A stretch of DNA of 42,220 bases. It comes from an uncultured Erysipelotrichaceae bacterium (lineage in GTDB: Bacteria > Bacillota_I > Bacilli_A > RF39 > UBA660). The position numbers and the translations under genes were made by a program. Positions 4,580 to 42,220 of this stretch are shown here, one piece after another (the stretch's first letter is position 1; every line of letters starts with the position of its first letter). The stretch spans positions 1 through 42,220 of the forward strand of contig CADAWN010000007.1 in assembly GCA_902791625.1 (NCBI GenBank). Reading direction: 5' to 3'. Under the pieces are notes generated by a model. That model saw only the letters and a program-made list of their open reading frames with translations. It made no database searches and was not told where the DNA came from.

Positions 4580-4683
4580 ACAAATTCCCCTTTTTTCCTA
4601 TTCTATATATATGATAACATAGATTACTATATTTTTCTATATAATAAATTAATTATTTTACACATAATATTTAAAGTTAATGT

Positions 4684-4689
4684 TATAAT
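4684..4689 (+). promoter_or_regulatory. Possible extended -10 of the aminopeptidase gene
   Basis: TGTTATAAT is a perfect extended -10 (TGn-TATAAT). It lies only about 10 nt ahead of the AGGAGG ribosome binding site, so the predicted transcript would start almost at the SD. There is no convincing -35. This is plausible but unproven. Confidence 0.35.
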
Positions 4690-4705
4690 AAAAAAGGAGG
4701 ATTTT

Positions 4706-5908
4706 ATGAAAGAAAAGTATATAAATTTATTAGTAAATAAATGCCTAAATTTTAGTAAAAGTAGTTCACTATTTATTAGTTGTGATAAAGTAAATAAAGA
4801 TTTTGTAGATGAATTAATAGAAAAAATTGACAAAGAAAAAGTAACAGATATATATATTGATATGGATGATATATTTTTAAAACATGATAAACTTAAAAAT
4901 ATAAATATAGAAGATATTGAACATGATAAGTATTTTGATAAAAGCATTTGGGATGAGTATGCAAAAAAAGATTCAGCTTTCTTAATGATTGATACTGAGT
5001 TTCCTCATGTAATGGATGATATTGAACCTGAAAAGATTACTAAAGCAGCTGAAATTGCTCGTAAATCTAGACCAATATTTAGAAGAAAAGAATCTACCAT
5101 GGAAATATCATGGTGTATAGCAGCAGTTCCTAATGAAATATGGGCTAAAGATATTTTTAAGGATGATGAAAAAGCTTATCAAAAATTAGAAGAATTAATA
5201 TATAAATGTTGTATGGTAGATACAGAAAATCCAATAGAAAGTTGGACTAATTATTTAAATAAAACAAAATGTCTTGCAGATAAACTTAATAATTTAAAAA
5301 TAGAACGTCTTCATTATAAAAATAGTTTAGGAACTGACTTAAATATAGAACTACCAAAAGACGTTATATGGCAAAGTGCTGCTAGCGAAGCTAGTTTTGA
5401 TTGTATTGTAAATATGCCAACATATGAAATATTTACATCTCCTAACTATAAAGGTACAAATGGTGTTGTTTATAACGCTCTTCCATTAATGTATGGTGGA
5501 AAACTTGTTGATAAGTTTTCTATAGAATTTAAAGATGGTAAAGCAGTTAATTGGAAAGCAGAATCTGGTGAAGAAATCTTAAAAGGTATTATCGAAGGAG
5601 ATGAAAGAAGCTCTTATTTAGGAGAAGTAGCTCTAGTAAATCATAACTCTCCTATTTCTAATACTGGTGTTATATTTGGTACAACTTTATTTGATGAAAA
5701 TGCTTCATGTCATTTAGCACTAGGAGATGGATTCCCAGAATGTATAAAAAATGGATCTAAAATGAGTAAGGAAGAATTATTAAATCATGGTATAAACCAA
5801 TGTCCTAATCATGTTGACTTTATGGTTGGAACAAGTGATTTAGAAATAGAAGCTAAAACAAAAGATGGAATAATTAAAATATTTGAAAACGGAAATTTTG
5901 TAATATAA
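4706..5908 (+). CDS. Aminopeptidase, M29 family (AmpS/PepS type)
   Basis: This 400-residue cytoplasmic metalloaminopeptidase is the usual length for peptidase family M29, which removes N-terminal amino acids with a two-metal site. Family blocks are visible: PTYEIFTSP followed by GTNG, GEVALVNHNSPISN, LFDENASCHLALG and NHVDFMVGTSDLEI. These contain the conserved Glu, His and HxD metal ligands. The start has a near-perfect AAGGAGG 5 nt ahead of the ATG. It is divergent from the phosphoketolase pseudogene, convergent with the DUF4176 gene, and ends in the palindromic terminator at 5907-5938. Confidence 0.92.
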   Translation: MKEKYINLLVNKCLNFSKSSSLFISCDKVNKDFVDELIEKIDKEKVTDIYIDMDDIFLKHDKLKNINIEDIEHDKYFDKSIWDEYAKKDSAFLMIDTEFPHVMDDIEPEKITKAAEIARKSRPIFRRKESTMEISWCIAAVPNEIWAKDIFKDDEKAYQKLEELIYKCCMVDTENPIESWTNYLNKTKCLADKLNNLKIERLHYKNSLGTDLNIELPKDVIWQSAASEASFDCIVNMPTYEIFTSPNYKGTNGVVYNALPLMYGGKLVDKFSIEFKDGKAVNWKAESGEEILKGIIEGDERSSYLGEVALVNHNSPISNTGVIFGTTLFDENASCHLALGDGFPECIKNGSKMSKEELLNHGINQCPNHVDFMVGTSDLEIEAKTKDGIIKIFENGNFVI

Positions 5909-5944: not shown

Positions 5945-6493
5945 TTAATTTATTTGAGTAAAAATTGTTGTTGATTGTTGTTGAGCAGATTCTTCAGTCT
6001 GGCCAGAATCTTCAGTTTCAGTAATAACTGGAGCTACATATCCAGGAAGTCCTGGTCCTATAGGTGGTATATCATCCTCTTCTTGCTCTACTGTTGGTAC
6101 ATTTTCCTCAATAGTTGTTGGTTCTACATATCCAGGTAACCCTGGTCCTATTGGTGGTATATCATCCTCTTCATTTTTTTGTTCAATTTGCTGTTGATTA
6201 TTTTTTATATTATTAGCATTTTCTAAAGCAAATTTTAATTGATTAATAAACATCTTTTCTTCATCATCAATTAATCCCATATGATAAACTTTTCCTATTT
6301 GATTGTGATTAAATAATGCAGTTTCATCACTAGAAAGTGTTCCTTCTGGATAAAGTACACCTACATAATCATACATTTCATCTTTATTATCATCTGCTAT
6401 TGCGCAGAAGCCTGTAATCATCAATCTTTTTGTTGCTCCTTCCAACATAACTACTGTACCAATTGGTAAATATTTTTCTCCTACTTCATTCAT
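5945..6493 (-). CDS. DUF4176 protein with a duplicated Pro/Gly motif tail
   Basis: The 182-residue protein begins with a DUF4176-type domain (about residues 1-85: YLPIGTVVMLEG, YDYVGVLYPEG, FNHNQIGKVYHMGL). In Bacillota this small domain is typically encoded beside type VII secretion (ESX) effectors. Its molecular role is not established. The C-terminal half is low complexity: acidic and Gln-rich spacers around two copies of DDIPPIGPGLPGYV, encoded by a 48-nt direct repeat (6035-6082 and 6125-6172). It is last in the effector operon. The start is supported by AGGAGGAAAA upstream. The repeated tail may be a binding motif; that is inference. Confidence 0.7.
   Translation of the reverse strand: MNEVGEKYLPIGTVVMLEGATKRLMITGFCAIADDNKDEMYDYVGVLYPEGTLSSDETALFNHNQIGKVYHMGLIDDEEKMFINQLKFALENANNIKNNQQQIEQKNEEDDIPPIGPGLPGYVEPTTIEENVPTVEQEEDDIPPIGPGLPGYVAPVITETEDSGQTEESAQQQSTTIFTQIN
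6035..6172 (-). repeat. Two 48-nt direct repeats in the DUF4176 gene
   Basis: Copies at 6035-6082 and 6125-6172 (90-nt period) differ at only a few bases and encode the same 14-residue acidic/Pro/Gly block. The 42-nt spacer between them is unrelated. Confidence 0.85.
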
Positions 6494-6513
6494 TTTATTT
6501 TTCCTCCTTATAC

Positions 6514-6774
6514 TTACTTTATTCTATTTTTTTCCTGCAGTTCTATAACCCATTCTGGTATACCGCAATTCAACATTTCTTCAATGTCAACACTACTTTC
6601 ATCTATATTATTTTTTCTTAATAATTCTTTAATATATTCTCTTCTATATTCTTTTACTGTTTCTAACGATATATTCATTTTATTTTCAAGATCTTGTCTT
6701 AATTCTTCCATAGTCGAACTATGGGAATTATCTGTATGTGGTTCAATATTAAATAACATATTATTTTCTCTCAT
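6514..6774 (-). CDS. Small protein downstream of the T7SS toxin, candidate immunity protein
   Basis: This 86-residue, highly charged, mostly helical protein has no signal peptide or TM segment and I recognise no family. It begins 24 nt after the stop of the 1200-aa toxin gene, with AAGGTGATAAA directly ahead of its ATG. That is where cytoplasmic immunity proteins of polymorphic toxins usually sit. Immunity is inferred from position only. It could instead be an adaptor associated with the following DUF4176 gene. Confidence 0.5.
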   Translation of the reverse strand: MRENNMLFNIEPHTDNSHSSTMEELRQDLENKMNISLETVKEYRREYIKELLRKNNIDESSVDIEEMLNCGIPEWVIELQEKNRIK

Positions 6775-6798
6775 TTTATCACCTTTTCTAATAATATT

Positions 6799-9700
6799 CT
6801 AAATTTGATCTAAGAAAATGTAGATAGATTTATTATCATTACTCTTCATAACATTAGATATATTAAATTTTGAACCACTACCTAATGTAACTTCTACCTC
6901 ATGTGAATAACCATAGTCCGATAAAAAGCCTAAATTAGCTCCTTTTTTTGTATTTATAATTAATTGGACATCCGCTCCAGGTAACAATCCGGCATCAGCT
7001 ATAGGGGTTGCACTCATAAAGCCATTGTCTGAATATATATTACCATTTTTTGTCAATTTTTTGTAGATTTCCTCAGCAGAATCTGTAAGTTTTATTCCAT
7101 AACTTGATAATCCTTCTATACTCATTCCTCTACCTAAAACCATAGAATCTTGAAAATCATTTAAACTAAAAGCTTCATTAAGTGCTTCAGTTTGTGATTT
7201 AACTCTAACTAGTAAATCAGAAAACTTCATTTTTTCTTCTCCAAATATACTACGACCAGCTTTATTTATTTTAATAATATCTGTTAACGGGTCATATGTA
7301 TAAGATATTTTTCTACCATTTAAACCTGTCATTTCCAATTGAGGCTTGCCATATACATCAGTTATTACCTTACCATCTTTATTTCTACAAAATAAGTTTT
7401 CCAAAATTTTCTTTGGATCTGTGTTCCATGCCCTATTAATAGTATTAATCTCAGTAAATGCACCAGGTCCTCTTCCTTTTGTATATCCAACACATAAATC
7501 TTTGTATTTATATTGTTTTCCATTAATAGGATCTACATATACTTTTTCTTCTAATATTTTACCCCATTGTTTTCTAACCTCTTCAGTTGCTTTTTTATAT
7601 TCAATTGAATTATTATAAATAGTCAAATCTTTTCTATCGCCTTTTGATATCAAAAATTTTTCAGAATCATTATTAATGATGCCAAATTGATTATTGTTAT
7701 TTGATGATATTTTAGGCTCAATTTTATTCTGATTATTAGTATTTTTAGCAACCTGATTATTACTGCTATACTCATATTCTTTCGAATAATTATCCATTAT
7801 TTTTTCCCAATTATTAAACTTCTTATCGTATTTAATCAATTCTTCATAGTTTGCTTTTTTACGATTAACTGCATATTCATACCATTTAAAATTTTGACTC
7901 GACATTAATCCTTCAATTTGTTGCATAGAATAATGTAAACCATTAGGATTAAAAACAGGATTATAATTAGTATTAGCAACCACTTTTTTTGTTACATTAT
8001 CATACGATCCAACGATTAGACTCGGTGTTAAATATGTAATAGTTCTGTCATTAGTAACTTTATATATAGGCACAGGAATATCATTTGCATTGTACCCCAT
8101 ATATTTTTTAGGAATTTTTATAATATAGCACTTTTCATAATTATGGTTATTACAGTAATTTTTTACATATTCATCTAAATTCATATTTGTATTTTTTAAA
8201 TCTATTTGCATCATTGTTGAGGCCATATCGGTACCATATCTTGATCTCAATCCATTTGTAAATATTTCATTATCAATATCTGTATTATTCGTTCCATGAA
8301 TATAATACACATAATTTTTATCACTTCCATCTAATACATTTTGATTTATATAGCTAATATTTTTTGTTTTTGGTTCAAATGTATGAACATTTTTTTCTAT
8401 AGATTTTTGATTAATAATATCTATTTTTTCTAACTGTTCTGTAGTTAAATATTTCTTGATTTTTTCAAATTCTTCGTTATTTAATTTCCTAATTCTATCC
8501 GTTGATAAATTCTTAGTAAATAAATCCAAAGTTGTTGTTTTAGCAGTTTCAATTATTTCATGTACTTGTGATTCACTAATGTTATCTATAACTTTTCTTA
8601 ATGTCACTTTGTCAAGTAATGAGAAAGTCTTAGTTAACTGTTTAGCAGTAAGTTTACTTGTTACTAAACCTAGTTTTCCACCTTGATCAGCCTTTGTTAA
8701 AAAGTTTTTCAAACTATTTCCTTTTAAATTTTGTATAGAAGTAACTGTGGCATCTGTTAAACCATCAGCAGACATTTTTTTATAAGTTGCATTTGCTCTT
8801 TTTACAGATGCAATATCTGGCATTTCAGAAACTAATGATATAACTGCAGCAGATGCTGCTTGTATACCTACATTAGACCAACCACCTCTAAGTTTAAATA
8901 ATGCTGCATATTTTTCACTGAATGAAAGATCTTCCCATTTTTTGTCACTAATCTTATTTCCATTTTTATCATAATTTACACAATACATTATTTGTGCTTT
9001 ATTTTCTTCATTTGGAGAATATATCATACTAAATAATGGATCCATAAATGCTCCACTTGCTCCATCAGCAGCATCTAAAGCTACATGCACGCCTGTATTA
9101 CCAACCTGTGAAGCCATTCCTGTACCTTTAAAAGGTTTAAATCCATTTATTGCATAACCAATAGTCATTTCTGCACCTTCATATAGACCCTTAGTTATAC
9201 CGTACCCTAAGCCACCTAAAATACTTGCTCCATCATTCCAAGCAGCGGCAGTATTTTTTCCAACACCTGCAGCTGCTGCTATCCCACCGGATACAAATGC
9301 ACTTGATGAAACCGTTAGTGTTGCTCCTGTTGCACTTGCTGCTGCAGAGCCTGCTACCAAACCATTTCCTCCACCAGCTGCTAAAACTGTACTTCCTGCA
9401 CCAGCTGTTGCACCTGTTAATATTAGAACACCTGTTATATAACCTACACCTTCAGCAACTTTTCCAATAGTTCCTGTTGTCTTAAATGGTGAATAAGCAT
9501 ATTTATCAAGTTTTTGTCTCAATCCCAACTTTTGATCTAACTTATCTGACCAATTATATTTAACAGCTGCCTTAGTACCATCCCATAAATCTTTTGTATT
9601 CTTAAAATCCCAATTACCCGTTACTGCTCCTTTAACAATATCTTTTGCTCCTGTAAATACAGTGCCTGCGGCTGATGCAGCCATGAGCCCAAAATCTCCA

Positions 9701-10401
9701 ATCGATTCTACAAAATTTACTACACCTTTTGAAAATGATAATACTACATTACCTAATGAAGCTAGTGTTCTTTTTGCAATATCTCTACCTTTTTTAAATA
9801 ATGATTTTAAACCATTCCATGCTGCTTTTACTCCAGTACAAATAACAGCTCCTGTTTTCTTTAATGCAGAGCCCACTCTACCAATAAATGTTTTTGGTTT
9901 TTTCTCAGTTACCTTACTTGCAGTTTCTACTATACTTTTCCTATTTCTACTATTATTATTAACACTAGTAACTTTTGATTGTGTCATTTTAGATTTTGTT
10001 GATTCATCTGTTTTTTTATATCTTGAATCAATATTAATATTAATTCCACTTTTTACATTTCCTTTATCAGTAGTAAATGTTCTTACTGATTTTCCTATTT
10101 CAATTGCATTGATAGTATTAGTTAATGTTTTAAAAGAACTATTATTTTTATTATCTATTCTTTCTTTTTCTATTACTTTATTTTGCACTTCTTTTTTTAT
10201 ATTATCTATTTTTTTACTAATATTATTTATTTCAACTTTTACTTTTTCTAAATTACTACATACTTCATCATTTTTTTCAGAATAATTATTTATGGCACAA
10301 TTAATAGTATCAATAGAATCATCAAAATTATTTTTTGATTTTTCAATTGATGGTATTAAACTACTTTTTATTCGAGTTGTATCAAGCACTATTAATCCCA
10401 T
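6799..10401 (-). CDS. Large T7SS polymorphic toxin with C-terminal ADP-ribosyltransferase domain
   Basis: This 1200-residue effector has four visible parts. Residues 1-100 are an LXG-like helical coiled-coil targeting region, with no signal peptide. About 165-460 is an amphipathic then Gly/Ala-rich hydrophobic region that could cross or insert into a membrane. About 690-830 is a domain opening with YIHGTNN and GLRSRYG (His702), resembling the start of HxT-type ART folds. About 920-1200 is a domain with the R-S-E signature of ADP-ribosyltransferase exoenzymes: Arg1091 (VLGRGM), Ser1130 (GFMSATP) and Glu1168/Glu1170 (SHEVEV, ExE). It follows two WXG100 genes and a coiled-coil gene and is followed by a small ORF, the standard type VII toxin cassette. 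The ART call is firm by motif. The target and the role of the middle domain are unknown. Confidence 0.8.
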   Translation of the reverse strand: MGLIVLDTTRIKSSLIPSIEKSKNNFDDSIDTINCAINNYSEKNDEVCSNLEKVKVEINNISKKIDNIKKEVQNKVIEKERIDNKNNSSFKTLTNTINAIEIGKSVRTFTTDKGNVKSGININIDSRYKKTDESTKSKMTQSKVTSVNNNSRNRKSIVETASKVTEKKPKTFIGRVGSALKKTGAVICTGVKAAWNGLKSLFKKGRDIAKRTLASLGNVVLSFSKGVVNFVESIGDFGLMAASAAGTVFTGAKDIVKGAVTGNWDFKNTKDLWDGTKAAVKYNWSDKLDQKLGLRQKLDKYAYSPFKTTGTIGKVAEGVGYITGVLILTGATAGAGSTVLAAGGGNGLVAGSAAASATGATLTVSSSAFVSGGIAAAAGVGKNTAAAWNDGASILGGLGYGITKGLYEGAEMTIGYAINGFKPFKGTGMASQVGNTGVHVALDAADGASGAFMDPLFSMIYSPNEENKAQIMYCVNYDKNGNKISDKKWEDLSFSEKYAALFKLRGGWSNVGIQAASAAVISLVSEMPDIASVKRANATYKKMSADGLTDATVTSIQNLKGNSLKNFLTKADQGGKLGLVTSKLTAKQLTKTFSLLDKVTLRKVIDNISESQVHEIIETAKTTTLDLFTKNLSTDRIRKLNNEEFEKIKKYLTTEQLEKIDIINQKSIEKNVHTFEPKTKNISYINQNVLDGSDKNYVYYIHGTNNTDIDNEIFTNGLRSRYGTDMASTMMQIDLKNTNMNLDEYVKNYCNNHNYEKCYIIKIPKKYMGYNANDIPVPIYKVTNDRTITYLTPSLIVGSYDNVTKKVVANTNYNPVFNPNGLHYSMQQIEGLMSSQNFKWYEYAVNRKKANYEELIKYDKKFNNWEKIMDNYSKEYEYSSNNQVAKNTNNQNKIEPKISSNNNNQFGIINNDSEKFLISKGDRKDLTIYNNSIEYKKATEEVRKQWGKILEEKVYVDPINGKQYKYKDLCVGYTKGRGPGAFTEINTINRAWNTDPKKILENLFCRNKDGKVITDVYGKPQLEMTGLNGRKISYTYDPLTDIIKINKAGRSIFGEEKMKFSDLLVRVKSQTEALNEAFSLNDFQDSMVLGRGMSIEGLSSYGIKLTDSAEEIYKKLTKNGNIYSDNGFMSATPIADAGLLPGADVQLIINTKKGANLGFLSDYGYSHEVEVTLGSGSKFNISNVMKSNDNKSIYIFLDQI

Positions 10402-10417
10402 TTTATTTCTCCTTTTA

Positions 10418-10840
10418 TTATTCTAAAGTATTATAATATTCGTTTAACAATTGTATATGCGAACTATTTGAATTTATATTATTTTTCAAGTTATTAAGTT
10501 TATCATTCAATTTTTGTATAATATTATTATTAATATTTCTTATTAATTCTTCAGTTTTATTAATAATATTATCTAATTCTTGAGTATTTGCTATATTATT
10601 GTGAACTTGAAAATACTTTTCAAGTTCATTTTTTGATATTGAAACATCAGTGCTAGCTGTTTTCAATTTTTGTATTAGATCATTACAATATTTTAAAGAA
10701 TTATTAATTTCATTAAATTTATTACTTGAACTATTATTCTCAATCTTCTTTGTATTAATATAGTTATATAGTTGAGATTTACTCATTTCTAATTCTTGTT
10801 TTGTAAGCGATGAAAATTTTGAATCTATTTGTTTTTCCAT
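10418..10840 (-). CDS. Small coiled-coil partner of the T7SS toxin (Lap/WXG-like)
   Basis: The 140-residue protein is almost entirely helical, rich in Asn, Lys, Leu, Ser and Ile, and has no signal peptide. It ends 16 nt before the toxin start. LXG toxins are commonly preceded by one or two small alpha-helical partners that bind the N-terminal helices and form the secretion complex. Size and position fit that role, but I recognise no diagnostic family motif. Its AGGAG ribosome binding site (10847-10851) abuts the base of a 21-bp hairpin (10852-10896), so its translation may be structure-controlled. Confidence 0.6.
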   Translation of the reverse strand: MEKQIDSKFSSLTKQELEMSKSQLYNYINTKKIENNSSSNKFNEINNSLKYCNDLIQKLKTASTDVSISKNELEKYFQVHNNIANTQELDNIINKTEELIRNINNNIIQKLNDKLNNLKNNINSNSSHIQLLNEYYNTLE

Positions 10841-10851
10841 AATTAACTCCT

Positions 10852-10896
10852 ATTCATAAATAAGAGTTAAAACCATTTTAACTCTTATTTATGAAT
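10852..10896 (-). promoter_or_regulatory. Perfect 21-bp intergenic hairpin with 3-nt loop
   Basis: Arms at 10852-10872 and 10876-10896 are exact reverse complements around a 3-nt loop. On the transcribed (minus) strand the 3' arm is followed directly by AGGAGTTAATT and the ATG of the coiled-coil gene. There is no T-run after it, so it is not a normal terminator. A processing site, mRNA stabiliser or translation switch between WXG100 and toxin genes fits better. Confidence 0.8.
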
Positions 10897-10915
10897 GCCT
10901 TACATAGAATAAGGC
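10897..10915 (-). promoter_or_regulatory. Small second hairpin after the WXG100 stop
   Basis: Arms GCCTTA and TAAGGC (6 bp) surround a 7-nt loop. On the transcript it lies between the WXG100 stop and the large hairpin. With no downstream T-run it more likely protects the 3' end of the WXG100 mRNA than terminates it. Confidence 0.5.
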
Positions 10916-10922
10916 AAATTTT

Positions 10923-11213
10923 TTATCCAATTTTACTTGAAACTGTTGATTCTAGTTTTTCATATGCAGGTGCTACTTTATTTGTTAAATAATCAGAACA
11001 GTCAGTTACTGATTTTATAAATTCTGGAAATTTTGCTTTCATTTTTGCAAATGCATCATATAATTCTTGTGCTGCTTCAGAATCATATACAGTTTTTACT
11101 TTTTCTATAATACCTGATAATTCACTATTTAATAATGAATCTAAATTTCTTGCAGATGTATTTAAATTATTAGCTGCTTCTCTACATCCTTGTGATGAAA
11201 ATGTCATTGCCAT
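10923..11213 (-). CDS. WXG100-family protein with degenerate WXG motif
   Basis: The 96-residue helical-hairpin protein has the size and pattern of ESAT-6/WXG100 secreted partners. At the turn the usual WxG is replaced by YDSEAAQEL. The C-terminus retains a YxxxE secretion signal (AYEKLES). It lies 16 nt downstream of the second WXG100 gene, so the two products may form a heterodimer, as EsxA/EsxB do. SD: GGAGGGATAAT. No other secretion-system gene is in the window. Confidence 0.8.
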   Translation of the reverse strand: MAMTFSSQGCREAANNLNTSARNLDSLLNSELSGIIEKVKTVYDSEAAQELYDAFAKMKAKFPEFIKSVTDCSDYLTNKVAPAYEKLESTVSSKIG

Positions 11214-11229
11214 TATTATCCCTCCTATT

Positions 11230-11502
11230 TTATAAATTTTCTTCTAAATCTTTATAATCTTTTCCTACTGATACTAAAAGTTCTCCAAAATCATTTATTA
11301 ATTTTCCAAACTTTTCATAATCTGCTTTAAAAGAATCAATACTATCAGTAAATCTTTGTGCTGCTGATCCTGTCCAAGTCTTTTTTAAATCTTCTACTAT
11401 ACCATAAATTTTTTTGATTTCATCATTATAGCTAGCAGCATTTCTAATTACTTGATTTCCATAACTAATTGCTTGTTCTGGATCCATACTAATCTTAGCC
11501 AT
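11230..11502 (-). CDS. WXG100-family protein (EsxA-like)
   Basis: The 90-residue helical hairpin has a canonical WTGSAAQRF turn and a C-terminal YxxxE signal (DYKDLEE), both hallmarks of type VII secretion substrates. It is first gene of the effector operon, with AGGAGGTGAAGAT ahead of the ATG. WXG100 proteins are secreted as dimers and often escort larger effectors; here it would be co-expressed with the 96-aa partner and the 1200-aa toxin. Confidence 0.9.
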   Translation of the reverse strand: MAKISMDPEQAISYGNQVIRNAASYNDEIKKIYGIVEDLKKTWTGSAAQRFTDSIDSFKADYEKFGKLINDFGELLVSVGKDYKDLEENL

Positions 11503-15979: not shown

Positions 15980-16030
15980 TATTTCACCTCAATATATATT
16001 ATAAACTATGTATATTTTCATGTAAATATA

Positions 16031-16064
16031 ATCAAAAAAAATAAAAAACTTATTACAGTTTTTT
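16031..16064 (-). terminator. Terminator after queH
   Basis: On the minus strand AAAAAACT-GTAATA-AGTTTTTT is followed by A and a long T-run. It overlaps the queH stop codon. Confidence 0.75.
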
Positions 16065-16659
16065 ACTTATTTCTAACAGAATATATACATCCACAATAGT
16101 CTTGTCTATATAAATTATATTCACGTGATAATTCTATACTTCTTTTATAACCATTCTTCTTTTTAAAATCAGAATATAAATATGTACTTTTTGTATTTTT
16201 ATCTAACTCTTCACCTATTTCATTAATCCAATTACTATTTTTATATGGACTAAGTGTTAGAGTTGTTGCGAAAAAGTCATAATTATTATCGTTTGCATAT
16301 TCACTAGTTTTTTTAAGTCTTAGTTTATAACACTCATAACATCTTTTACCTCTTTCAGGTTCTTCTTCTAATCCTTTAGCCATTTTAAAGAATATATCAC
16401 TATCATATCCACCATCAATGACATTAACTGGATATTTAGTTTTAAATGACTCAGTAAATCTAATTACTTCATTTAATCTTTTATTATATTCATCAATATT
16501 ATCTATATTTGGATTATAGTAATAAATATCTATTTTGAATATATCTCCTAATCTTTCAAGACATGCTGATGAACATGGTGCACAGCAAGCATGAAGTAAT
16601 AATCTAGGAACTTTATCTAACTTACTTATTTGTTCTTCCATTAAATTATCATAATTCAT
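16063..16659 (-). CDS. queH: Epoxyqueuosine reductase QueH
   Basis: QueH (former DUF208) reduces epoxyqueuosine to queuosine, the last step of tRNA wobble-base modification, and is non-homologous to QueG. Its metal-binding cysteines are all visible: HACCAPCSSAC near residue 23, RCYECYKLRL near 110, and DYCGC near the C-terminus. The motif TLTLSPYKN is also present, and the 198-aa length is typical. It follows the HAD nucleotidase gene by 2 nt, so they are probably co-transcribed. No queA, tgt or queT is in the window. Confidence 0.93.
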   Translation of the reverse strand: MNYDNLMEEQISKLDKVPRLLLHACCAPCSSACLERLGDIFKIDIYYYNPNIDNIDEYNKRLNEVIRFTESFKTKYPVNVIDGGYDSDIFFKMAKGLEEEPERGKRCYECYKLRLKKTSEYANDNNYDFFATTLTLSPYKNSNWINEIGEELDKNTKSTYLYSDFKKKNGYKRSIELSREYNLYRQDYCGCIYSVRNK

Positions 16660-16661
16660 AT

Positions 16662-17216
16662 TTATAGCACTTTCTTATTATTATCTTTTTTAAACTTTTC
16701 TGATACTTCATTCCAAGAAGTAATTCTATCTTCTATACCAGGATAATGATTTTCTTCATCAAAAAGAATTGGTGTTGTATCTACATCTCTATTTAAGATA
16801 TTAGAGTAATTATTAATACTATTATCTATCATTAAATCTATATTATATTTTTTACATACATAAGCTTTATCGCTTGCATTTACTATTACATGATCAACAC
16901 ATAGATTATTTCTCATACAATAATCTTCTGTTAATTCTTCACAATCATCTACTAAATCACTACATCTTGCACTTATTATAAATATTTCATTAACTTCATC
17001 ACCATATTGATATTTTAAATATCTAAATGCTTCTTGTGCACCTTCTTTTAATTCAACTTCTTTATATATTTTAGAAAGTACACTTCTTATTCTTTTCGCA
17101 TCCCATAAATCTTCTACTGTAGATACTTTATTTCCAACAGAAAAATCCTGTTCTAATTCTATTACTTTTTTTGTAGTTGAACATGTTGTGTCATCCATAT
17201 CAATACCAATTCTCAT
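16662..17216 (-). CDS. HAD-type 5'(3')-deoxyribonucleotidase-like phosphatase
   Basis: The protein opens with the HAD nucleophile motif IGIDMDDTTC. It continues with FIISARCSD (motif II Ser) and a Lys plus acidic motif in SDKAYVCKKYNIDLMIDNS. This arrangement and the ~185-aa length fit the NT5C/YorS group of nucleotidases, which dephosphorylate nucleoside monophosphates. I chose ATG 17216, well spaced from GAGGA. The GTG at 17225 would touch the SD. Two nucleotides separate it from queH. Substrate is not determinable from sequence. Confidence 0.8.
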   Translation of the reverse strand: MRIGIDMDDTTCSTTKKVIELEQDFSVGNKVSTVEDLWDAKRIRSVLSKIYKEVELKEGAQEAFRYLKYQYGDEVNEIFIISARCSDLVDDCEELTEDYCMRNNLCVDHVIVNASDKAYVCKKYNIDLMIDNSINNYSNILNRDVDTTPILFDEENHYPGIEDRITSWNEVSEKFKKDNNKKVL

Positions 17217-33915: not shown

Positions 33916-34173
33916 TTAACCTTCCTGAATTACTTTATCTAAAAGCTCATGTATTTTTATCCATTCTTCTTCTGTTTCAGGATTACCTAAAAACTCTAAT
34001 GTATCAGGATTGTAAACTGCTGAAAAGATTACTAATTTATTATTTTCGTCATAAGTATTATCTGTATAAATAATATAATCTTTATTATTATCTTCATTCT
34101 TGAATGTTAATATAACATCATATTCTATCTTATTACCAAATTCATCTGTTGAATATATCTTTTTCTTTTCCAT
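33916..34173 (-). CDS. DUF1292 (YrzB-like) protein
   Basis: The 85-residue protein has the DUF1292 pattern: DVILTFKNEDNNKDYIIYTD, NKLVIFSAVYNPD and TEEEWIKIHELLDKVI. This widespread small Bacillota protein is usually encoded near yrrK/yrzL. Here it instead overlaps the stop of the 568-aa gene by 1 nt (TAATG), an unusual translationally coupled position. The function is unknown. Confidence 0.85.
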   Translation of the reverse strand: MEKKKIYSTDEFGNKIEYDVILTFKNEDNNKDYIIYTDNTYDENNKLVIFSAVYNPDTLEFLGNPETEEEWIKIHELLDKVIQEG

Positions 34174-35879
34174 TATTTTAGCCCTCTTTTCTTCTCATCA
34201 TCTTTAGAAGTATCTTCATTATAATCTAATACTTCTTCTTCTTTTTCTTCTCCATTACTTAATCCCTTCTTTAATTCAGTAATACTATTAAGGAATTCTT
34301 TTTGTAAAGATAATGCTTTCATTTCATAATCATGAAGTAATTTTTTCATTTGTTGTTCTATATCAACAGATTGTTTTTCTTTAGATTTTAATTGATCATC
34401 CATATTCTTTAATGATTCTTCTTTTTCTTGTATTTGTTTATCTAGATCATCAATTTTATCCATCTTAGCTTTTTCTTCAGGAGTTACTCCTATTTTTCCA
34501 TCATTAGGTCTAAATACATTAACATTACCAATAGTTTCATCTTTATTTAAAATAATTCCACCAGCTGTTTTAAATGTATCATCACCTGTTTTTTCTCTTA
34601 CAAACCATTCAACTGAATCAATATCCATTGATGGAGGTACTATTTCATCTAAGTTTAGAGGTAATAATTCAGTTAAATCTAAATTCTTAACTCTATTAAT
34701 ATAACAGTTATAGAATCTTCCACCCTCTATAGGACTCTTATCATTAGGTATAAAGTATACATTTACATTACTACATCTATTACCAATAAATTCTTTTTGT
34801 CTTTCTAATGAATAATTTATTTCTTCAACTAAATAATATGTTCTTGGAAGTGTTGATAATTTATTAAATAATAATTGATATGCATCTTCTTTATCTGGAT
34901 AAGCTCTTTCAACAATATCTTTTATTTCATCTTTAACTTCATCATCTTCCCATTTATGTCCATCTAATAATAATTCAGTTAATTGTTTTAAATCTTCTAC
35001 TTTAATTCTATTATCACTACTATAAATAGTAGTATTACCATTTAAATAACTAGTTAAATTAGATACAGATAAATTTGGAGGTAATTGAGAAATTCTACGA
35101 GCTTCTTTTATTCCTTCCATAGTATGTTCATGATCATTTTTATATATAAATAATTTTCTTTGTTCTTTTGCCTTTATTTCTTCAACTGCATATAAAATAG
35201 TTTCATCAGAAATTAAAGAACTAATTATTTGTTCTCTCATTAATGATTTACTTTCTTCATCTATGTCTTCTTTAGAACATATTTTATCAACTATACTTTC
35301 TACTTCTTTAGAATCTAAATCACTAAAGAAAGCTTCTGTTAATTCTCTAATATCATCTGTTTTAAATGAATTATTAAAATCATTATCATTAACAGCTCTT
35401 AATACTTTTCTATTAACATCACCTACACCTACTCTAGGTAAATCTTTAATATCAAAAGCAATACGAATTTGTCTCATATTTTCTTCATGTAATCTCAAAT
35501 TATCTCTTTTAATAATTTCATTTAGTTTTTCATTTTTTTGTGATATTTCTTGTAATAAATAACCTATTCTTTTACTTTGTTCAATAAAGTTATATTTTTC
35601 TATTAATTGTTCTTCAGTTACATCTGGATAATTTTTTAATACTACTTTAAAGAATTCTTTTCTAACATCAGGATGTTGAAAATATCCATATTCAATTATC
35701 TTATCTATTATTGGTTTAAATTCTGTTTTACTTATTTTTTGTTTATTAAAATGAACATTAGCAGCTAGATAAGAAGTTATCTTAGAATAACTAATATTGG
35801 GTAAGTCATCTTTTGTTTCTGCATTTTTTATTTGTTCAATTACATTATTATGTCTTTGTAATTCTCTTTCTTCAGTCAT
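34173..35879 (-). CDS. 568-aa protein with three internal repeats and coiled coil
   Basis: I recognise no family. About residues 22-115, 150-235 and 265-355 are three related helical repeats. Each goes from a Leu-Pro element (DLPNISYSKITSYL; DLPRVGVGDVNRK; QLPPNLSVSNLTSYL) through a DDI/VEDLKQLTE-type helix and an acidic helix to a final YLLQEI / YAVEEI / YLVEEI. A ~100-residue beta-rich region (FYNCYINRVKNLDLTELLP, VEWFVREKTGDD) follows, then a coiled coil (about 470-550) and an acidic tail. Such repeats suggest a scaffold. It is in a tightly packed run with 36301, 36539 and DUF1292. Confidence 0.55.
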   Translation of the reverse strand: MTEERELQRHNNVIEQIKNAETKDDLPNISYSKITSYLAANVHFNKQKISKTEFKPIIDKIIEYGYFQHPDVRKEFFKVVLKNYPDVTEEQLIEKYNFIEQSKRIGYLLQEISQKNEKLNEIIKRDNLRLHEENMRQIRIAFDIKDLPRVGVGDVNRKVLRAVNDNDFNNSFKTDDIRELTEAFFSDLDSKEVESIVDKICSKEDIDEESKSLMREQIISSLISDETILYAVEEIKAKEQRKLFIYKNDHEHTMEGIKEARRISQLPPNLSVSNLTSYLNGNTTIYSSDNRIKVEDLKQLTELLLDGHKWEDDEVKDEIKDIVERAYPDKEDAYQLLFNKLSTLPRTYYLVEEINYSLERQKEFIGNRCSNVNVYFIPNDKSPIEGGRFYNCYINRVKNLDLTELLPLNLDEIVPPSMDIDSVEWFVREKTGDDTFKTAGGIILNKDETIGNVNVFRPNDGKIGVTPEEKAKMDKIDDLDKQIQEKEESLKNMDDQLKSKEKQSVDIEQQMKKLLHDYEMKALSLQKEFLNSITELKKGLSNGEEKEEEVLDYNEDTSKDDEKKRGLK

Positions 35880-35896
35880 ATATTTACACCTCTTTC

Positions 35897-36301
35897 TTAT
35901 TCAGTATATAAAATATCAGGATTCTTAATTATTTCTTCTTTTATATTAAGATTTAATTTTTTGATATTTTCTATTTTTTCTTCTACTTCTTTTGGTCCTA
36001 AAGTATATAAGTATTCATATCTTAGTATTAATGATTTTAACTCTTCTTTACTAAATATATTATTATATATATCATCAAGCATATTTTTTCTTTTTGAACC
36101 TATTGTAAATAAGTATGGATTCTTTTTAAATAGATCTATTATTTCATTATTAACTAATCCTTTTTGTTCAAAAAACTCTATATTTGATTTTATTAGTGTT
36201 AAATCATAGAAGTATAATTGATCATTAATTTTTGGAAATTCAAATAAATCTTCTTTTGTAAAACCATATTCATTTAAATAATTAAATATATTTTCATTCA
36301 T
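35897..36301 (-). CDS. Small helical protein, mTERF-like repeat pattern
   Basis: The ~134-residue protein is all helical. Repeated FKKNPYLFTIGSK, ILRYEYLYTLGP and IIKNPDILYTE units look like mTERF-type helical repeats, but I cannot assign the family firmly. The ATG at 36301 has GAGGTG 6 nt upstream and overlaps the previous stop by 8 nt. It sits in the packed run between two coiled-coil genes. Confidence 0.5.
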   Translation of the reverse strand: MNENIFNYLNEYGFTKEDLFEFPKINDQLYFYDLTLIKSNIEFFEQKGLVNNEIIDLFKKNPYLFTIGSKRKNMLDDIYNNIFSKEELKSLILRYEYLYTLGPKEVEEKIENIKKLNLNIKEEIIKNPDILYTE

Positions 36302-36539
36302 AATATTCACCTCTTCTTAGTTGTTCTCTTAATACTTTATTTTCATGTTCTAAAGTTTGTATATCTTTTACAATATCTATTATATCTGATTCTAATTCTT
36401 TTATTTCATTTCTATAAAGTATAGTAACACCATCTAATTGTTCTTCATCTAAGTCATAAACTGTTATTTCTTTATTATCTAGTTTTTGTTTAATAATTAA
36501 ATTATCCTTTAATTTTTTTAAACTATCTTTATCTTCCAT
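36294..36539 (-). CDS. 81-aa coiled-coil protein
   Basis: The protein is short, acidic and without TM. The second half (EIKELESDIIDIVKDIQTLEHENKVLREQL) is a clear coiled coil, suggesting a dimeric adaptor. The ATG overlaps the end of the HNH-array gene fragment (36529) by 11 nt, and its own end overlaps the next gene. These overlaps imply co-translation of the whole run. No family is recognised. Confidence 0.5.
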   Translation of the reverse strand: MEDKDSLKKLKDNLIIKQKLDNKEITVYDLDEEQLDGVTILYRNEIKELESDIIDIVKDIQTLEHENKVLREQLRRGEYYE

Positions 36540-37332
36540 AACTTGTCACCACCATATTATTCATGATCTCTTGTTTTAAGTTAGTATTCTCTTCTAATAG
36601 ACCATCTTTATATTCAGTTAATCTTTCTTTCTTATCTCTTAGTATTTCTACCAAATTAATTAAGTTTTGTACTTTATCACTCTTCTTGTTTTTGGCTTTT
36701 AATTTATCAATATATTGATCAATACTTTTTACCTTTAAATGATTCAACACTTTAGTTCTTGCTGTATCATACTCTTCTCCGCTATAGTCTTTATCTGATT
36801 GTACAAATTCCTTTTCATCAGCATCATAGTACTTATTATAGAACAAGAGTGGAATTATATGTGTATTACGATTGCTATTCCAAAAATAGCTTGTATCTAA
36901 TCCGTCTATATCTTCATATCCTTCAAAAGAAATTTTATTATATTGACTAAAAATATTACTATTATCTGGATATCCATTTTTTTTATATGATGTATATTTT
37001 TCTTTACTAAGCATATCTATAAATACATCTATTCTACTTAATATATTACTTTGGACTTGAAATTCATAGCTTTCTATAGCTTTTTGGGCTTTTTCTAACC
37101 TTTTAAATTTACTTTGCTCTTCTTCTGTTATATTTTCTTTCTTATTCAATTCATCGAATCGTTCTTTAAGTCTCTTTTTTATTTCTGGAGAATGACTCAT
37201 CCAAAAAAAGCTTGTATCTAACCCATCTATATCTTTATATCCTTCAAATTTAATTTTATTTCTTTGTACAAAAATATTATTATTATCCGGGTCTCCATTT
37301 TTATATGATGTATATTTTTCTTTACTAAGCAT
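36529..37332 (-). pseudogene. C-terminal fragment of the HNH repeat-array protein
   Basis: This 267-residue frame is not an independent gene by content. It starts mid-repeat (at the MLSKEKYTSYKNGDPD motif, without an SD) and contains two repeat units. It ends with a C-terminal domain (LLFYNKYYDADEKEFVQS, DYSGEEYDTARTKVLNHLKVKSI, coiled coil) homologous to the end of the 878-residue paralogue. It is the downstream end of the gene at 37631-39466 after two frameshifts. If recoding or reversion occurs, it would form one ~980-residue protein. Confidence 0.75.
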
Positions 37333-38260
37333 ATCTATAAATACATTTATTTTTTCTACTAAGCTTGTAATCTATCCAGCTTATCTTGTTCTTCTTCTGT
37401 CATATTTTCTTTCTTATCCAATTCATCTAATCGTTCTTCAAGTCTCTTTTTTATTTCCGGAGAATTATGACTCCAAAAATATCTTGTATCTAATCCATCT
37501 ATATCTTCATATCCTTCAAATTTAATTTTATTACATTGACTAAAAATATTATTATTATCCGGGTCTCCATTTTTATATGATGTATATTTTTCTTTACTAA
37601 GCATATCTATAAATACATTTATTTTTTCTACTAAGCTTGTAAGCTTGTTTTAAATTCATAGTTTTTTATAGCAGTTTGGGCTTGTTTTAATCTATTTAAT
37701 TTATCTTGTTCTTCTTCTGTAATATTTTCTTTCTTATCCAATTCATCTAATCGTTCTTCAAGTCTCTTTTTTATTTTTGAAGAGTTTCTACTCCAAAAAT
37801 GGCTTGTATCTAATCCATCTATATCTTCATATCCTTCAAATTTAATTTTATTTTGACTACTAAAAATATTATTATTATCCGGGTCTCCATTTTTATATGA
37901 TGTATATTTTTCTTCTCCAAGCATATCTATAAATACATTTATTCTTTCTACTAAGCTTGTTTTAAATTCATATTTTTCTATAGCAGTTTGGGCTTGTTTT
38001 AATCTATCTAGTTTATTTTGTTCTTCTTGTGTTTTAGTTTGTTTACTATTCAATTCATCTAATCGTTCTTCAAGTTTCTTTTTTATTTCTGAAGAATGAT
38101 CACTCCAAAAATATCTTGTATCTAATCCATCTATATCTTTATATCCTTCAAATTTAATTTTATTTTGACTACTAAAAATATTATTATTATCCGGGTCTCC
38201 ATTTTTATATGATGTATATTTTTCTTTACTAAGCATATCTATAAAAATATTTATTTTGGT
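36896..38260 (-). repeat. Five tandem ~312-nt repeat units in the HNH gene
   Basis: The shared segment encoding FIDMLSKEKYTSYKNG and FEGYEDIDGLDT recurs with successive spacings of 318, 272, 320 and 312 nt (measured at the common ATATCTAT end points 37020, 37338, 37610, 37930 and 38242). Units are nearly identical over long stretches. The 320 and 272 spacings equal 312+8 and 312-40 and mark the two frameshifts. Confidence 0.85.
37359..37604 (-). pseudogene. Middle repeat-unit fragment of the HNH repeat-array protein
   Basis: One repeat unit (81 residues) in the third frame, again beginning at an internal MLSKEKY and ending at DRLQA before TAG. It is about 40 nt shorter than the neighbouring units and lacks the QAQTAIEKYEFKT segment. 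The deletion and its frameshift lie at the ACAAGCTT motif. Confidence 0.75.
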
Positions 38261-39466
38261 ATCAACACTCAATTTAATGTTTTCTTCAAATACTCTTTTA
38301 TTTTCATCACTTAATTTACTTATAGGTATATATAACAAATCTATATCTCGTAAATCTTTCATTGATATATAATAATCTTTCATACTCTTATTATTTTCTT
38401 TAAGTATGCTTTTTATTATATCAATTCTAGAAGTTAATTCTTTTCTAATATCTTCTTCTTGTTCAAATTCAATTGAATCTACTAATCTATAATAATCTAC
38501 TTTTAATGAATTAGTTAAATATGATGTATCATTTGATTCTTCTTTAAATATATCTTCTACTATACTTTGTACCAATTCATATTTTTTATTTGCTTTAAAT
38601 ATTCCTTGTTCTTCTAATTCTTTTATTTTTGTATCAATTGCAGTAATATCATAATTATCTTCTTTTAATTTATTTACTAGTGAATCTAGAAATTTTTTAT
38701 ATTCAAAAATATCTGTTTCTTTAACATTTTGTCTATCTATTGATTTATCTTTTTTTTGTTTTATTTGCTTTTTTGTAATAGTATTTATATCATCATTGTC
38801 TGTATAGCCTTGTTCACCATCAACAAAATCATAATTAAACTCTAATTCATTTTCTTTATATTCTTTATATGCAACTGAATATGCAGATAACATATAACAT
38901 ACTATTCTATTTAGCTTTTCAGGTTTATAATACTTTTTTCCAGATTGATTAAACCAATCAATTAGATGTCGATTACCTTTTTCACCTGTTCCATTTGCTT
39001 CTACACTTGATAAAAGGCAATTAAATAAGACAGTTCCACCTCCACCTGAATGAGGCATTATATGTTCTAACTCTAATCTTTTATTACTATCTTTTTCACT
39101 ACGTTTTTTTTCTAATTCTCTTTCTATTTCTGATATATTATATTCTTTACCAGTATATGGACATGTATATGTTACATACTTTCCAGACTCATCTTTTTTT
39201 CCAAAATATAATAAAGATAAAGCAATTAGTTTTCTTTTCTCTAATAAAGCAAGATTTTCAGAATCTAGGCTTCTTCTTAAATTATTTTCTATTTGCCAAT
39301 TGGATATTAAATCTATACTCATTGTATAATCTATTAAATATTGTTTATCTTCATCTAATTGATTATACATTTCAGACTTAAAATTAGGAATACCACAAAG
39401 CATTTCTATTATTCCATCTGTACTGTTAAGTTTTTCTAATTCTTCTTTTTCTAGTATCCTATCCAT
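37631..39466 (-). CDS. HNH endonuclease with C-terminal repeat array (frameshifted 3' end)
   Basis: Of 611 residues, the N-terminal ~200 contain an HNH nuclease: CPYTGKEYN, then LEHIMPHSGGGGTVLFNCLLSSVEAN (catalytic His135 and His139, metal Asn149), then KGNRHLIDWF. The shape recalls HNH domains of Cas9-like and phage enzymes. A helical middle (about 230-400) and two ~104-residue repeats (FIDMLxxEKYTSYKNGDPDNN...GLDTRYFW, K/E-rich helix) follow. The TxxFW element resembles the G-x-W of helicase-associated repeats. Translation ends at EFKTSLQA because an 8-bp ACAAGCTT duplication shifts the frame. SD AGGTGATACT. A nuclease-plus-binding-repeat defence or mobile protein is inferred. Confidence 0.75.
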   Translation of the reverse strand: MDRILEKEELEKLNSTDGIIEMLCGIPNFKSEMYNQLDEDKQYLIDYTMSIDLISNWQIENNLRRSLDSENLALLEKRKLIALSLLYFGKKDESGKYVTYTCPYTGKEYNISEIERELEKKRSEKDSNKRLELEHIMPHSGGGGTVLFNCLLSSVEANGTGEKGNRHLIDWFNQSGKKYYKPEKLNRIVCYMLSAYSVAYKEYKENELEFNYDFVDGEQGYTDNDDINTITKKQIKQKKDKSIDRQNVKETDIFEYKKFLDSLVNKLKEDNYDITAIDTKIKELEEQGIFKANKKYELVQSIVEDIFKEESNDTSYLTNSLKVDYYRLVDSIEFEQEEDIRKELTSRIDIIKSILKENNKSMKDYYISMKDLRDIDLLYIPISKLSDENKRVFEENIKLSVDTKINIFIDMLSKEKYTSYKNGDPDNNNIFSSQNKIKFEGYKDIDGLDTRYFWSDHSSEIKKKLEERLDELNSKQTKTQEEQNKLDRLKQAQTAIEKYEFKTSLVERINVFIDMLGEEKYTSYKNGDPDNNNIFSSQNKIKFEGYEDIDGLDTSHFWSRNSSKIKKRLEERLDELDKKENITEEEQDKLNRLKQAQTAIKNYEFKTSLQA

Positions 39467-39496
39467 AGTATCACCTATTATATTTATTGTATCAAA

Positions 39497-39521
39497 AAAA
39501 GACTTATTTTATAAGTCTTTT
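39497..39521 (-). terminator. Terminator between the two HNH paralogues
   Basis: On the minus strand AAAAGACTTAT-AAA-ATAAGTCTTTT is followed by TTTTT. It ends the upstream paralogue, so each HNH gene is probably transcribed separately. Confidence 0.85.
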
Positions 39522-39556
39522 ATATTTGTTTAACATGTGGTTTACATTATTTTATA

Positions 39557-42220
39557 TTATCTATGACTTTGTGTTACTAAGATAGAGTTTTTTAACTCTT
39601 CTTTTAAGTTAATATTCTCTTCTAATTTTTCTTCTCTATATTCAATTAATCTTTCTTTCTTATTTATTAAATCTTCAACTAACTCAATCATATTTCCTAA
39701 TTTCTTTGCCTTATTAGACTTACTTTTTAGTCTATTAATATACTTTTCAGTATTCATATAATCTTCAATTCTATTTACTTTTAAGTACTTCAACACTCTT
39801 TCTCTAACTATATCATACTCTTCACCACTATAATCTTCACCTGATTGAACAAATTCATTTTTTTTAGCATCATAGTACTTATTATAAAATAGAAGTGGGA
39901 TGAGTTTATCATCTTTAATATTATCCCAAAACTTTCTTACTGTAACATTAAAATCTTTATCTACTACTCTTTTTCCATTTTCATCTTTTTTATATGTTTT
40001 AAATGTTAGATTGCTATCAAATTTTAATAATTCTTGAAATTCTTCTTGTTCTGCATTTTTTAGCATTTCTAAAAAAATTTTTCTACGTCTTTTTGCTCCT
40101 TCATTTGTTCTAGCTCCAGCATCTGTTTTCAGATAATAATCATCTAGTTTTTCTCTTATATCTTCATATTGTTCTTCTTTATATATTATATCTAGTAAAG
40201 TATCTTTTTGAGATTGCCAAAACTGTCCTATTGTAACATTAAAATCTTTCTCTATTACTTTTTTTCCTTCTTCATCAAATTCTATTTTTCCATTTTCATC
40301 CTTTTTATAAATTTTAAATGTTAGATTATTATTCTTATTTAATAATTCTTGAAATTCAGCTTTATCTGCATTTTTTAACATTTCTAAAAATATATTTATT
40401 TTTATTTCATATTTCAATTCATTTCTTAGAACATCTATTTTATTCATATACTCTTCAATTCTATTTACTTTTAAGTACTTTAACACTCTATCTCTAACTA
40501 TATCGTACTCTTTACCACTATAATCTTCACCTGATTGAACAAATATATTTTCTTTAGCATCATAGTACTTATTATAGAATAGAAGTGGGATAAGTTTATC
40601 ATCTTTATTATTTTTCCAAAATGGTCCTATTGTAACATTAAAATCTTTTTCTATTACTTTTTTTCTATTTGCATCTTTTATTACATTTCCAATTTCATCT
40701 TTTTTATATATTTTAAACGTTATATTACTACCCTGTTTTAATAATTCTTGAAACTCATCTTGATCTGCACATTTTAACATTTCTAAGAAGATTTCTATAC
40801 GTCTTTTTACTCCTTCTTCAGCCGTTCTACTTCTTATATAATAATCATCTAGCTTTTCTCTTATACCTTCATATTGTTCTTTTTTATATATTATATCTAG
40901 TAATTCATCTTTATGACTTTGCCAAAACTGTCCTATTGTAACATTAAAATCTTTTTCTATTTTTTTTCCATTTGCATATTTTATTACTTTTCCATTTTCA
41001 TCCTTTTTATAAATTTTAAATGTTATTATTTTTGCAGTATCCCTATTTAATAATTTTTGAAATTCTTTTTCATCTGCATTTTTTAACATTTCTAAGAGTA
41101 TATTTATTTTTGTTTCAGGACTTAACTTAATATTCTCTTCAAATATACTTTTATCATTGTCACTTATTTTATATGTAGGTATATATAATATATCTATATC
41201 TTCTATATCTTTCATTGATATATAATAGTCTTTCATACTTTTATTAGTTTTTTCAAGTATACCTTTTATTATTTCAATTCTTGCTTTTATTTCACTTTCT
41301 ATTTCTTTTTCGTTTTCTACTTTAATTGAATCTACTAATCTATAATAATCTACTTTTAATGAATTTGTTAAATATGATGTATCACTAGTTCGTTCTTGAA
41401 ATATATCTTCTACTATTCTTTGTACTAATTCATATTTATTATTTGTTTTAAATATTCCATCTTCTTCTAATACTTTTATTTTTTTATCAATTTCAGTAGT
41501 ATCATAGTTATCTTCTTTTAATTTATTTACTAATTGATCTAAATATATTTTATATCCTTCTATTTTTGTTTCATTTTTTTGTTTCGATTTTGTTTTTTCT
41601 TTTCTAATAGTTTCTAATTCATTATTATCAGTATTTTCTTCTTTACCATCAACAAATTCATAATTAAATTCCAATGCATTTTTTTTATACCCGTTATATG
41701 CGATTGAATATGCGGATAACATATAACATACTATTCTATTTAGTCTATTAAAATCATAATAATCAGATTGACTAAACCAATCGATTAGATGTCGATTGCC
41801 TTTTTCACCTTTTCCATTTGCTTCTACACTTGATAAAAGACAATTAAATAAAACAGTTCCACCTCCACCTGAATGAGGCATTATGTGTTCTAATTCTAAT
41901 CTTTTATTATCATCTTTTTCACTTTGTTTTTTTTCTAATTCTCTTTCTATTTCTGATATATTATATTCTTTACCAGTATATGGGCATGTATATGTTACAT
42001 ACTTTCCAGTATCATCTTTTTTTCCAAAATATAATAAAGATAAAGCAATTAATTTTCTTTTTTCTAATAAAGCTAGGTTTTCAGAATCTAGACTTCTTCT
42101 TAAATTTCTTTCTATTTGCCTATTGGATATTAAATCTATACTCATTGTATAATCTATTAAATCTTTTTTTTCTTTATCTAATTGATTATACATTTCAGAC
42201 TTAAAATTAGGAATACCACA
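39557..42220 (-). CDS. HNH endonuclease paralogue with A-B-A-B repeat array (5' end outside window)
   Basis: At least 887 residues, continuing beyond base 42220: the frame reads CGIPNFKSE before the first Met in the window, as in its paralogue (whose start is 28 residues earlier). The same HNH domain is present (CPYTGKEYN, LEHIMPHSGGGGT, NRHLIDWF), ~85-90% identical over the N-terminal region. The C-terminal array differs: unit A (KINIxLEMLKNA..., QFW, EQYExIREKLDDYY) and unit B (FLEMLK, FWxNxKDDKLIPLLFYNKYYD, DYSGxEYDIVRxRVLKYLKVNRIE) alternate A-B-A-B, ending in a coiled coil. Unlike the first copy, it is uninterrupted. Confidence 0.78.
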   Translation of the reverse strand, partial: CGIPNFKSEMYNQLDKEKKDLIDYTMSIDLISNRQIERNLRRSLDSENLALLEKRKLIALSLLYFGKKDDTGKYVTYTCPYTGKEYNISEIERELEKKQSEKDDNKRLELEHIMPHSGGGGTVLFNCLLSSVEANGKGEKGNRHLIDWFSQSDYYDFNRLNRIVCYMLSAYSIAYNGYKKNALEFNYEFVDGKEENTDNNELETIRKEKTKSKQKNETKIEGYKIYLDQLVNKLKEDNYDTTEIDKKIKVLEEDGIFKTNNKYELVQRIVEDIFQERTSDTSYLTNSLKVDYYRLVDSIKVENEKEIESEIKARIEIIKGILEKTNKSMKDYYISMKDIEDIDILYIPTYKISDNDKSIFEENIKLSPETKINILLEMLKNADEKEFQKLLNRDTAKIITFKIYKKDENGKVIKYANGKKIEKDFNVTIGQFWQSHKDELLDIIYKKEQYEGIREKLDDYYIRSRTAEEGVKRRIEIFLEMLKCADQDEFQELLKQGSNITFKIYKKDEIGNVIKDANRKKVIEKDFNVTIGPFWKNNKDDKLIPLLFYNKYYDAKENIFVQSGEDYSGKEYDIVRDRVLKYLKVNRIEEYMNKIDVLRNELKYEIKINIFLEMLKNADKAEFQELLNKNNNLTFKIYKKDENGKIEFDEEGKKVIEKDFNVTIGQFWQSQKDTLLDIIYKEEQYEDIREKLDDYYLKTDAGARTNEGAKRRRKIFLEMLKNAEQEEFQELLKFDSNLTFKTYKKDENGKRVVDKDFNVTVRKFWDNIKDDKLIPLLFYNKYYDAKKNEFVQSGEDYSGEEYDIVRERVLKYLKVNRIEDYMNTEKYINRLKSKSNKAKKLGNMIELVEDLINKKERLIEYREEKLEENINLKEELKNSILVTQSHR
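39745..41115 (-). repeat. A-B-A-B tandem repeats in the second HNH gene
   Basis: A-B pairs of ~700 nt: units begin near 41115 (A1), 40800 (B1), 40405 (A2) and 40095 (B2). The ~180-nt B segment at 40473-40655 is strikingly similar to that at 39780-39960 (same order of sites, few differences). Confidence 0.8.

Follow-up and report, generated by a model that had tools for sequence, protein, structure and literature searches.

Transcription activator-like effectors (TALEs) consist of tandem units about 34 residues long in which a di-residue varies, and HNH heads are common among homing enzymes. A TALE-inspired screen covered repeats of 30–43 residues only, and its main text contains neither HNH nor nuclease (PMC5472282). 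The stretch of DNA analysed here (the window) comprises the 42,220 nucleotides of contig C7 of an uncultured Erysipelotrichaceae bacterium, whose assembly of 1.53 Mb consists of 61 contigs. At its right end (36529–42220) lie two adjoining minus-strand genes, each encoding an HNH head and, behind it, a series of tandem repeats. As judged from the sequences of these genes and their relatives, a conserved head is joined to exchangeable arrays, and the core of the repeat units varies sharply at two triplets of residues, with an excess of amino-acid change there.

The HNH head and the repeat arrays

The heads of the two genes showed 74.6% identity over 379 residues (85.7% at the DNA level), while their tails reached 53% in alignment. 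An earlier, sequence-only reading of the window had proposed a nearly identical HNH head and a common C-terminal tail; both parts are indeed shared, but "nearly identical" was too strong for the heads. Residues E139, H140, N154, and N163 were kept in all 23 head rows of alignment A6, and the truncated L063, which stands outside this alignment, has D-H at the acidic-His position. The HNH_4 family of Pfam matched 18 of 23 members at E ≤ 0.1, and its curated cut-off was passed by gene 2 and narrowly missed by gene 1 (Table 1), which bears out the earlier HNH assignment. The motifs follow each other in the order CPY-G...EHI.P...N...N, as in Cas9-type HNH, and a model of the head aligned with the HNH domains of Nme1Cas9 and SaCas9; the predicted fold is that of a Cas9-type HNH domain.

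The two arrays were confirmed to be different. Gene 2 carries five type-A units (KEKYTSY...GLDTxxFW) at a spacing of about 104 residues, as the sequence-only reading had stated, while the four FW units of gene 1 belong to type B (YKKDENG...IGxFW), and a segment similar to the tail of gene 2 (LIPLLFYNKYYD...) stands after units 2 and 4, in agreement with the A-B-A-B layout described for this gene. Both arrays were detected in the DNA by Tandem Repeats Finder, thus they are not chance repeats.

Both genes were found where they had been placed, but the contig ends within gene 1, and gene 2 is split between reading frames. The window contains no start for gene 1, whose outermost 45 bases recur unchanged in gene 2; such an identity at a contig edge is a usual stopping place for an assembly. 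The five units of gene 2 are distributed over three open reading frames (ORFs; 611, 81, and 267 residues), and the frame breaks, near 37640 and 37360, coincide with copies of ACAAGCTT; they may be biological or due to assembly error. An intact relative of gene 2 is P0004 (989 residues), and P0001 is 98% identical to gene 1. Each of these proteins is listed with a 32,260-base contig, and together they probably represent the locus of the window in another assembly. The third unit of P0004 differs from that of gene 2, and the first unit of P0001 matches the first unit of P0002, not that of gene 1.

Database searches revealed 22 related proteins, one without a head (P0014) and two that stop before the array (P0021 and P0022), while the remaining ones consist of head and array. 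Sorting of the arrays by eye gave, besides types A and B, the class of L006, an IGxMQ class (P0012), and LGxFR or IGxFL classes (L007, L017, L060, and L040). The number of units ranges from one (P0005 and P0007) to eight (P0015), and type-A units are spaced at 93–106 residues. Conserved arrays, which the sequence-only reading had named as evidence against it, were not observed: relatives differ in the class, the number, and the residues of their units.

Variable positions and exchange of arrays

The most variable core columns of the units (40 of type A and 34 of type B) were the three after IF or IL, one before FW, and two after FW, that is, six positions in the form IF-xxx and x-FW-xx. Some linker columns were as variable as these sites, and the most variable type-A column overall was column 72, which belongs to the linker and in which terminal units do not align in register. 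The column analyses covered neither the other array classes nor proteins without an array (P0012, P0021, P0022, L006, L007, L017, and L020 were excluded); one of the two also excluded near-duplicates (P0001, P0014, and the pieces of gene 2), and two units remained unparsed in the other. Two gene 1 slices present in alignment A7 are missing from A8, and both lack one of the four L059 slices. Among 83 distinct A and B unit cores, 81 different six-residue words were counted (with one unit unparsed and one first site misread). The six positions are 85% polar and 5% aromatic, compared with 63% and 12% in whole units.

In the DNA of gene 2, L006, and L007, amino-acid change was found in all 18 codon columns at the variable sites and in 62 of 225 elsewhere. 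The corresponding ratios of non-synonymous to synonymous polymorphism (pN/pS) were 2.03 and 0.44; this test is partly circular, since the sites were derived from such comparisons and the first site of L007 was placed by eye. The second site was also examined in three arrays not used in defining it, where its variation exceeded that of random column triplets (L055, P = 0.012; L060, P = 0.038; L040, P = 0.017). In the AlphaFold model of two gene 2 units a long helix begins exactly at FW, which would place the second site in the first turn of this helix and the first site in a loop. The sequence-only reading had compared the system with a target-specificity generator; these hypervariable sites, which it did not mention, strengthen the idea.

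Exchange of arrays could be followed in L055 and L056, two copies at one integration site. Their DNA is identical in the head (336 codons) and the tail (93 codons; 0 of 429 differing), while the array differs in 46 of its 477 codons (28 non-synonymous and 18 synonymous changes), as expected of the interchangeable arrays proposed earlier. Apart from one synonymous change in unit 1, all of these differences (28 non-synonymous and 17 synonymous) fall in units 2–4. Five of the 28 amino-acid changes are at the six variable positions, which is above the share of these positions in the unit and far from most of the changes; much of the rest is an exchanged stretch in unit 4. The surroundings of the two copies aligned over 10,785 bases with 96.9% identity. 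A third element at the same site has a similar head and another array class, the arrays showing no DNA match. A comparable pattern was seen between L055 and L059 (genome G209), where the mTERF gene and the head matched at 87% and the region from the tail onward at 85% of the DNA, while the arrays, of types A and B, were unmatched; the proteins align end to end at 45.6%.

Partner genes, occurrence, and mobility

The feature does not end with the two nuclease genes, as the sequence-only reading had it, but reaches left to 33916 with four further genes after gene 2, which recur with the nuclease elsewhere (Table 1). From gene 2 through the DUF1292 gene, neighbouring genes either overlap or are separated by 17 bases, a spacing that would fit a single transcript.

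Table 1. Features of the nuclease locus in the window (pLDDT, predicted local distance difference test; pTM, predicted template modelling score)
Feature	Position	Strand	Evidence
Gene 1: HNH head, four type-B units, tail; 5′ end off contig (887 residues present)	39557..42220	-	ORF list, sequence
HNH_4-like motif, gene 1	41792..41986	-	21.7 bits, cut-off 22 (Pfam)
Gene 1 array: four FW units, tail-like segment after units 2 and 4	39932..41098	-	Alignments
Gene 2: HNH head, five type-A units in three frames, tail	36529..39466	-	ORFs 37631-39466, 37359-37604, 36529-37332
HNH_4-like motif, gene 2	38969..39163	-	22.5 bits, cut-off 22 (Pfam)
Gene 2 units 1 and 2, modelled pair	37649..38263	-	pLDDT 92.3, pTM 0.85; long helix from FW in each unit
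Small predicted coiled-coil protein (81 residues)	36294..36539	-	Relative in L057 at 6186-6422: 40% over 71 residues, E 4e-13
mTERF-like protein (137 residues), constant neighbour	35897..36310	-	PF02536 34.4 bits, cut-off 23.1; alignment A3
Protein X (568 residues)	34173..35879	-	C-terminal part common to X of L016 and L020
DUF1292 protein (85 residues)	33916..34173	-	PF06949 32.5 bits, cut-off 24

Ten loci had readable flanks: the window, L006 with L020, L007 with L019, L016, L017, L040, L055, L056, L057, and L060 (L063 is cut and was left out). L006/L020 and L007/L019 were paired by inference, because their arrays run off contig ends, and L016, L055, and L056 are not independent, since they belong to one kind of element. 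The mTERF-like gene adjoins the nuclease gene or is one small gene off in all ten, X was present in eight (absent from L017 and not seen for L007/L019), and DUF1292 in seven. PF02536 matched the mTERF gene of L020 with 34.9 bits (cut-off 23.1). Otherwise this family is uncommon, with matches in 5 of 60 relatives at E ≤ 0.001, two of them over the cut-off, and a single match in the genome of the window. Genome G021 has several mTERF matches away from the nuclease; at 2857–5194 (minus strand) of its locus L018 there are two longer mTERF-like proteins (388 and 254 residues) with no nuclease gene nearby. Nuclease genes with mTERF-like genes on both sides were noticed at L060 18–3423 and, as an inferred pair, at L007 6131–9105 with L019 8119–8604. 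X was detected in 14 of 386 genomes and the nuclease in four of these 14, so X also occurs without it. Pairs of X and DUF1292 were seen at L035 7948–9218 and L039 9183–11058, with no nuclease gene in the part that was read.

One search detected the nuclease in 4 of 386 genomes and overlooked that of G377; two further searches gave 5 of 385 (one weak) and 2 of 395. Each count includes the window's own genome. Records with a name come from uncultured Bacillales, Erysipelotrichaceae, Clostridia, and Bacilli bins. Three copies (L016, L055, and L056) lie within one kind of element carrying what we take to be a large serine recombinase, inserted in what is presumably a penicillin-binding-protein gene. 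In L016 this gene is split into residues 1–415 (4478–5722) and 398–633 (16019–16717), the recombinase immediately preceding the latter; the corresponding part in L055 and L056 begins at residue 412 or 413 and has a similar recombinase next to it. AbiEi and AbiEii (6376–7829, plus strand, of L016; E 1.1e-65 and 1.2e-87) directly precede the mTERF gene on this element, which is company typical of defence genes, at one locus. L017 sits between core genes. A smaller serine-recombinase element also interrupts the same presumed penicillin-binding-protein gene, near residue 350, in the genome to which the window belongs (L068, G000:C27:27500-34315); this gene seems to be a hotspot.

Elsewhere in the window, the minus strand at 6799–11502 encodes two WXG100-like small proteins, a 140-residue protein, and a 1200-residue protein that weakly matches an ADP-ribosyltransferase family (PF01129, E 0.031), a set that we take for a type VII secretion cluster, the names being partly assumed. 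A presumed phosphoketolase-like protein at 2214–4579 (minus strand) is divided between two ORFs (552 and 200 residues), perhaps owing to a frame break.

Proposed function and comparison with described systems

With moderate confidence, we propose a sequence-specific HNH nuclease that is re-targeted through array recombination and probably attacks invading mobile DNA. The head is predicted to cut nucleic acid, while the array would pick the target by reading a composite DNA site, the variable residues contacting the bases, as the fixed positions of the variability, the placement of the helix, and the residue make-up suggest. Duplication and exchange of units and replacement of blocks, seen as sequence change, may alter the target, and the mTERF-like protein and X, being linked to the nuclease, might assist or restrain it. 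The mobile element, the nearby AbiE genes, the scattered distribution, and the diversifying change would make defence the likeliest benefit. One result counts against DNA binding: the arrays are not basic, their charge being near zero. A structure search with the type-A unit pair gave no confident PDB or viral match, and short-read misassembly may possibly lie behind the differences between alleles.

The near-neutral arrays, together with the failure of the repeats to match any DNA-binding fold, would also suit arrays that bind protein or RNA, in a sensor-effector that cuts nucleic acid after recognizing, for example, a phage protein. Diversifying sites are typical of protein recognition too. 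This explanation is unlikely in our view, given that the variable positions are so polar and poor in aromatic residues and that one variable site starts a helix, neither of which is decisive. Somewhat less probable again is a homing-type selfish endonuclease, in which the array would find the unoccupied insertion site and the HNH head cleave it, with the gene then copied into the break. The frequency of HNH heads in homing enzymes, the scattered occurrence, and the position of L017 fit it; it is disfavoured because L055 and L056 carry different arrays at one integration site, and the window also holds two different arrays side by side, three copies were moved by a serine-recombinase element, and the partner genes recur. 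Decaying or relaxed repeats, or short-read artefacts, are improbable: gene 2 is broken in the window and contigs end inside the arrays of L006, L007, L019, and L020, but change peaks at the same motif positions across proteins and repeat classes, the rest of the unit is constrained, and many long proteins are intact.

A bolder form of the proposed DNA-targeting nuclease, which we offer only tentatively, is a protein-only, evolvable enzyme, a natural counterpart of engineered TALE nucleases, in which each unit of about 100 residues would read a short piece of DNA via its two triplets. Units would be duplicated and exchanged behind an unchanging head, and loading or control would fall to the mTERF-like protein and X. 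If this were true, bacteria would re-aim a protein-only nuclease by shuffling repeats; if the triplets read DNA, nature would have already joined a new recognition module to a nuclease, and its code could be worked out from existing arrays. With a ligand other than DNA, the nuclease, the mTERF-like protein, X, and DUF1292 would still form a recurring set without earlier description in the open-licence papers searched. The repeats matched no relevant Pfam family. PADLOC-DB 2.0.0 gave no match for genes 1 and 2 and X of the window or for the HNH, mTERF, X, and DUF1292 proteins of L055, and no description of the layout or the gene set was found in the libraries or those papers, in line with the earlier statement that no named system has this layout. 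We consider the layout new; the mechanism is a proposal.

Among described systems, Cas9 shares the motif order and the modelled fold of its HNH domain, while a C-terminal repeat array stands here in place of the other Cas9 parts; RuvC, the bridge helix, and REC had no Pfam match among the proteins scanned, and identity with Cas9 was rejected. Nucleic-acid binding by the FW element, which the sequence-only reading had likened to that of helicase-associated repeats, found no support in Pfam: among the proteins scanned, PF03457 gave no hit up to E = 1; the LP...LGxF...Q...L pattern of the L007, L017, L040, and L060 arrays presumably resembles these repeats. Free-standing HNH homing endonucleases similarly combine HNH with repeated small modular DNA-binding parts, whereas here different arrays occupy one site and partner genes recur. 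Type I restriction specificity subunits also change specificity by recombination of recognition parts, but no restriction-modification genes were recognized beside the loci read. In TALE and TALE-like proteins, as here, nearly identical units follow each other in tandem, with their differences mainly at fixed positions, and the arrays recombine, though linker columns vary here too. The proposed enzyme would function as a TALE-like reader fused to a nuclease. Identity with TALEs was rejected on unit spacing: in contrast to their short units with a di-residue, the type-A units are 93–106 residues apart, and the units have two variable triplets and are joined to an HNH head.
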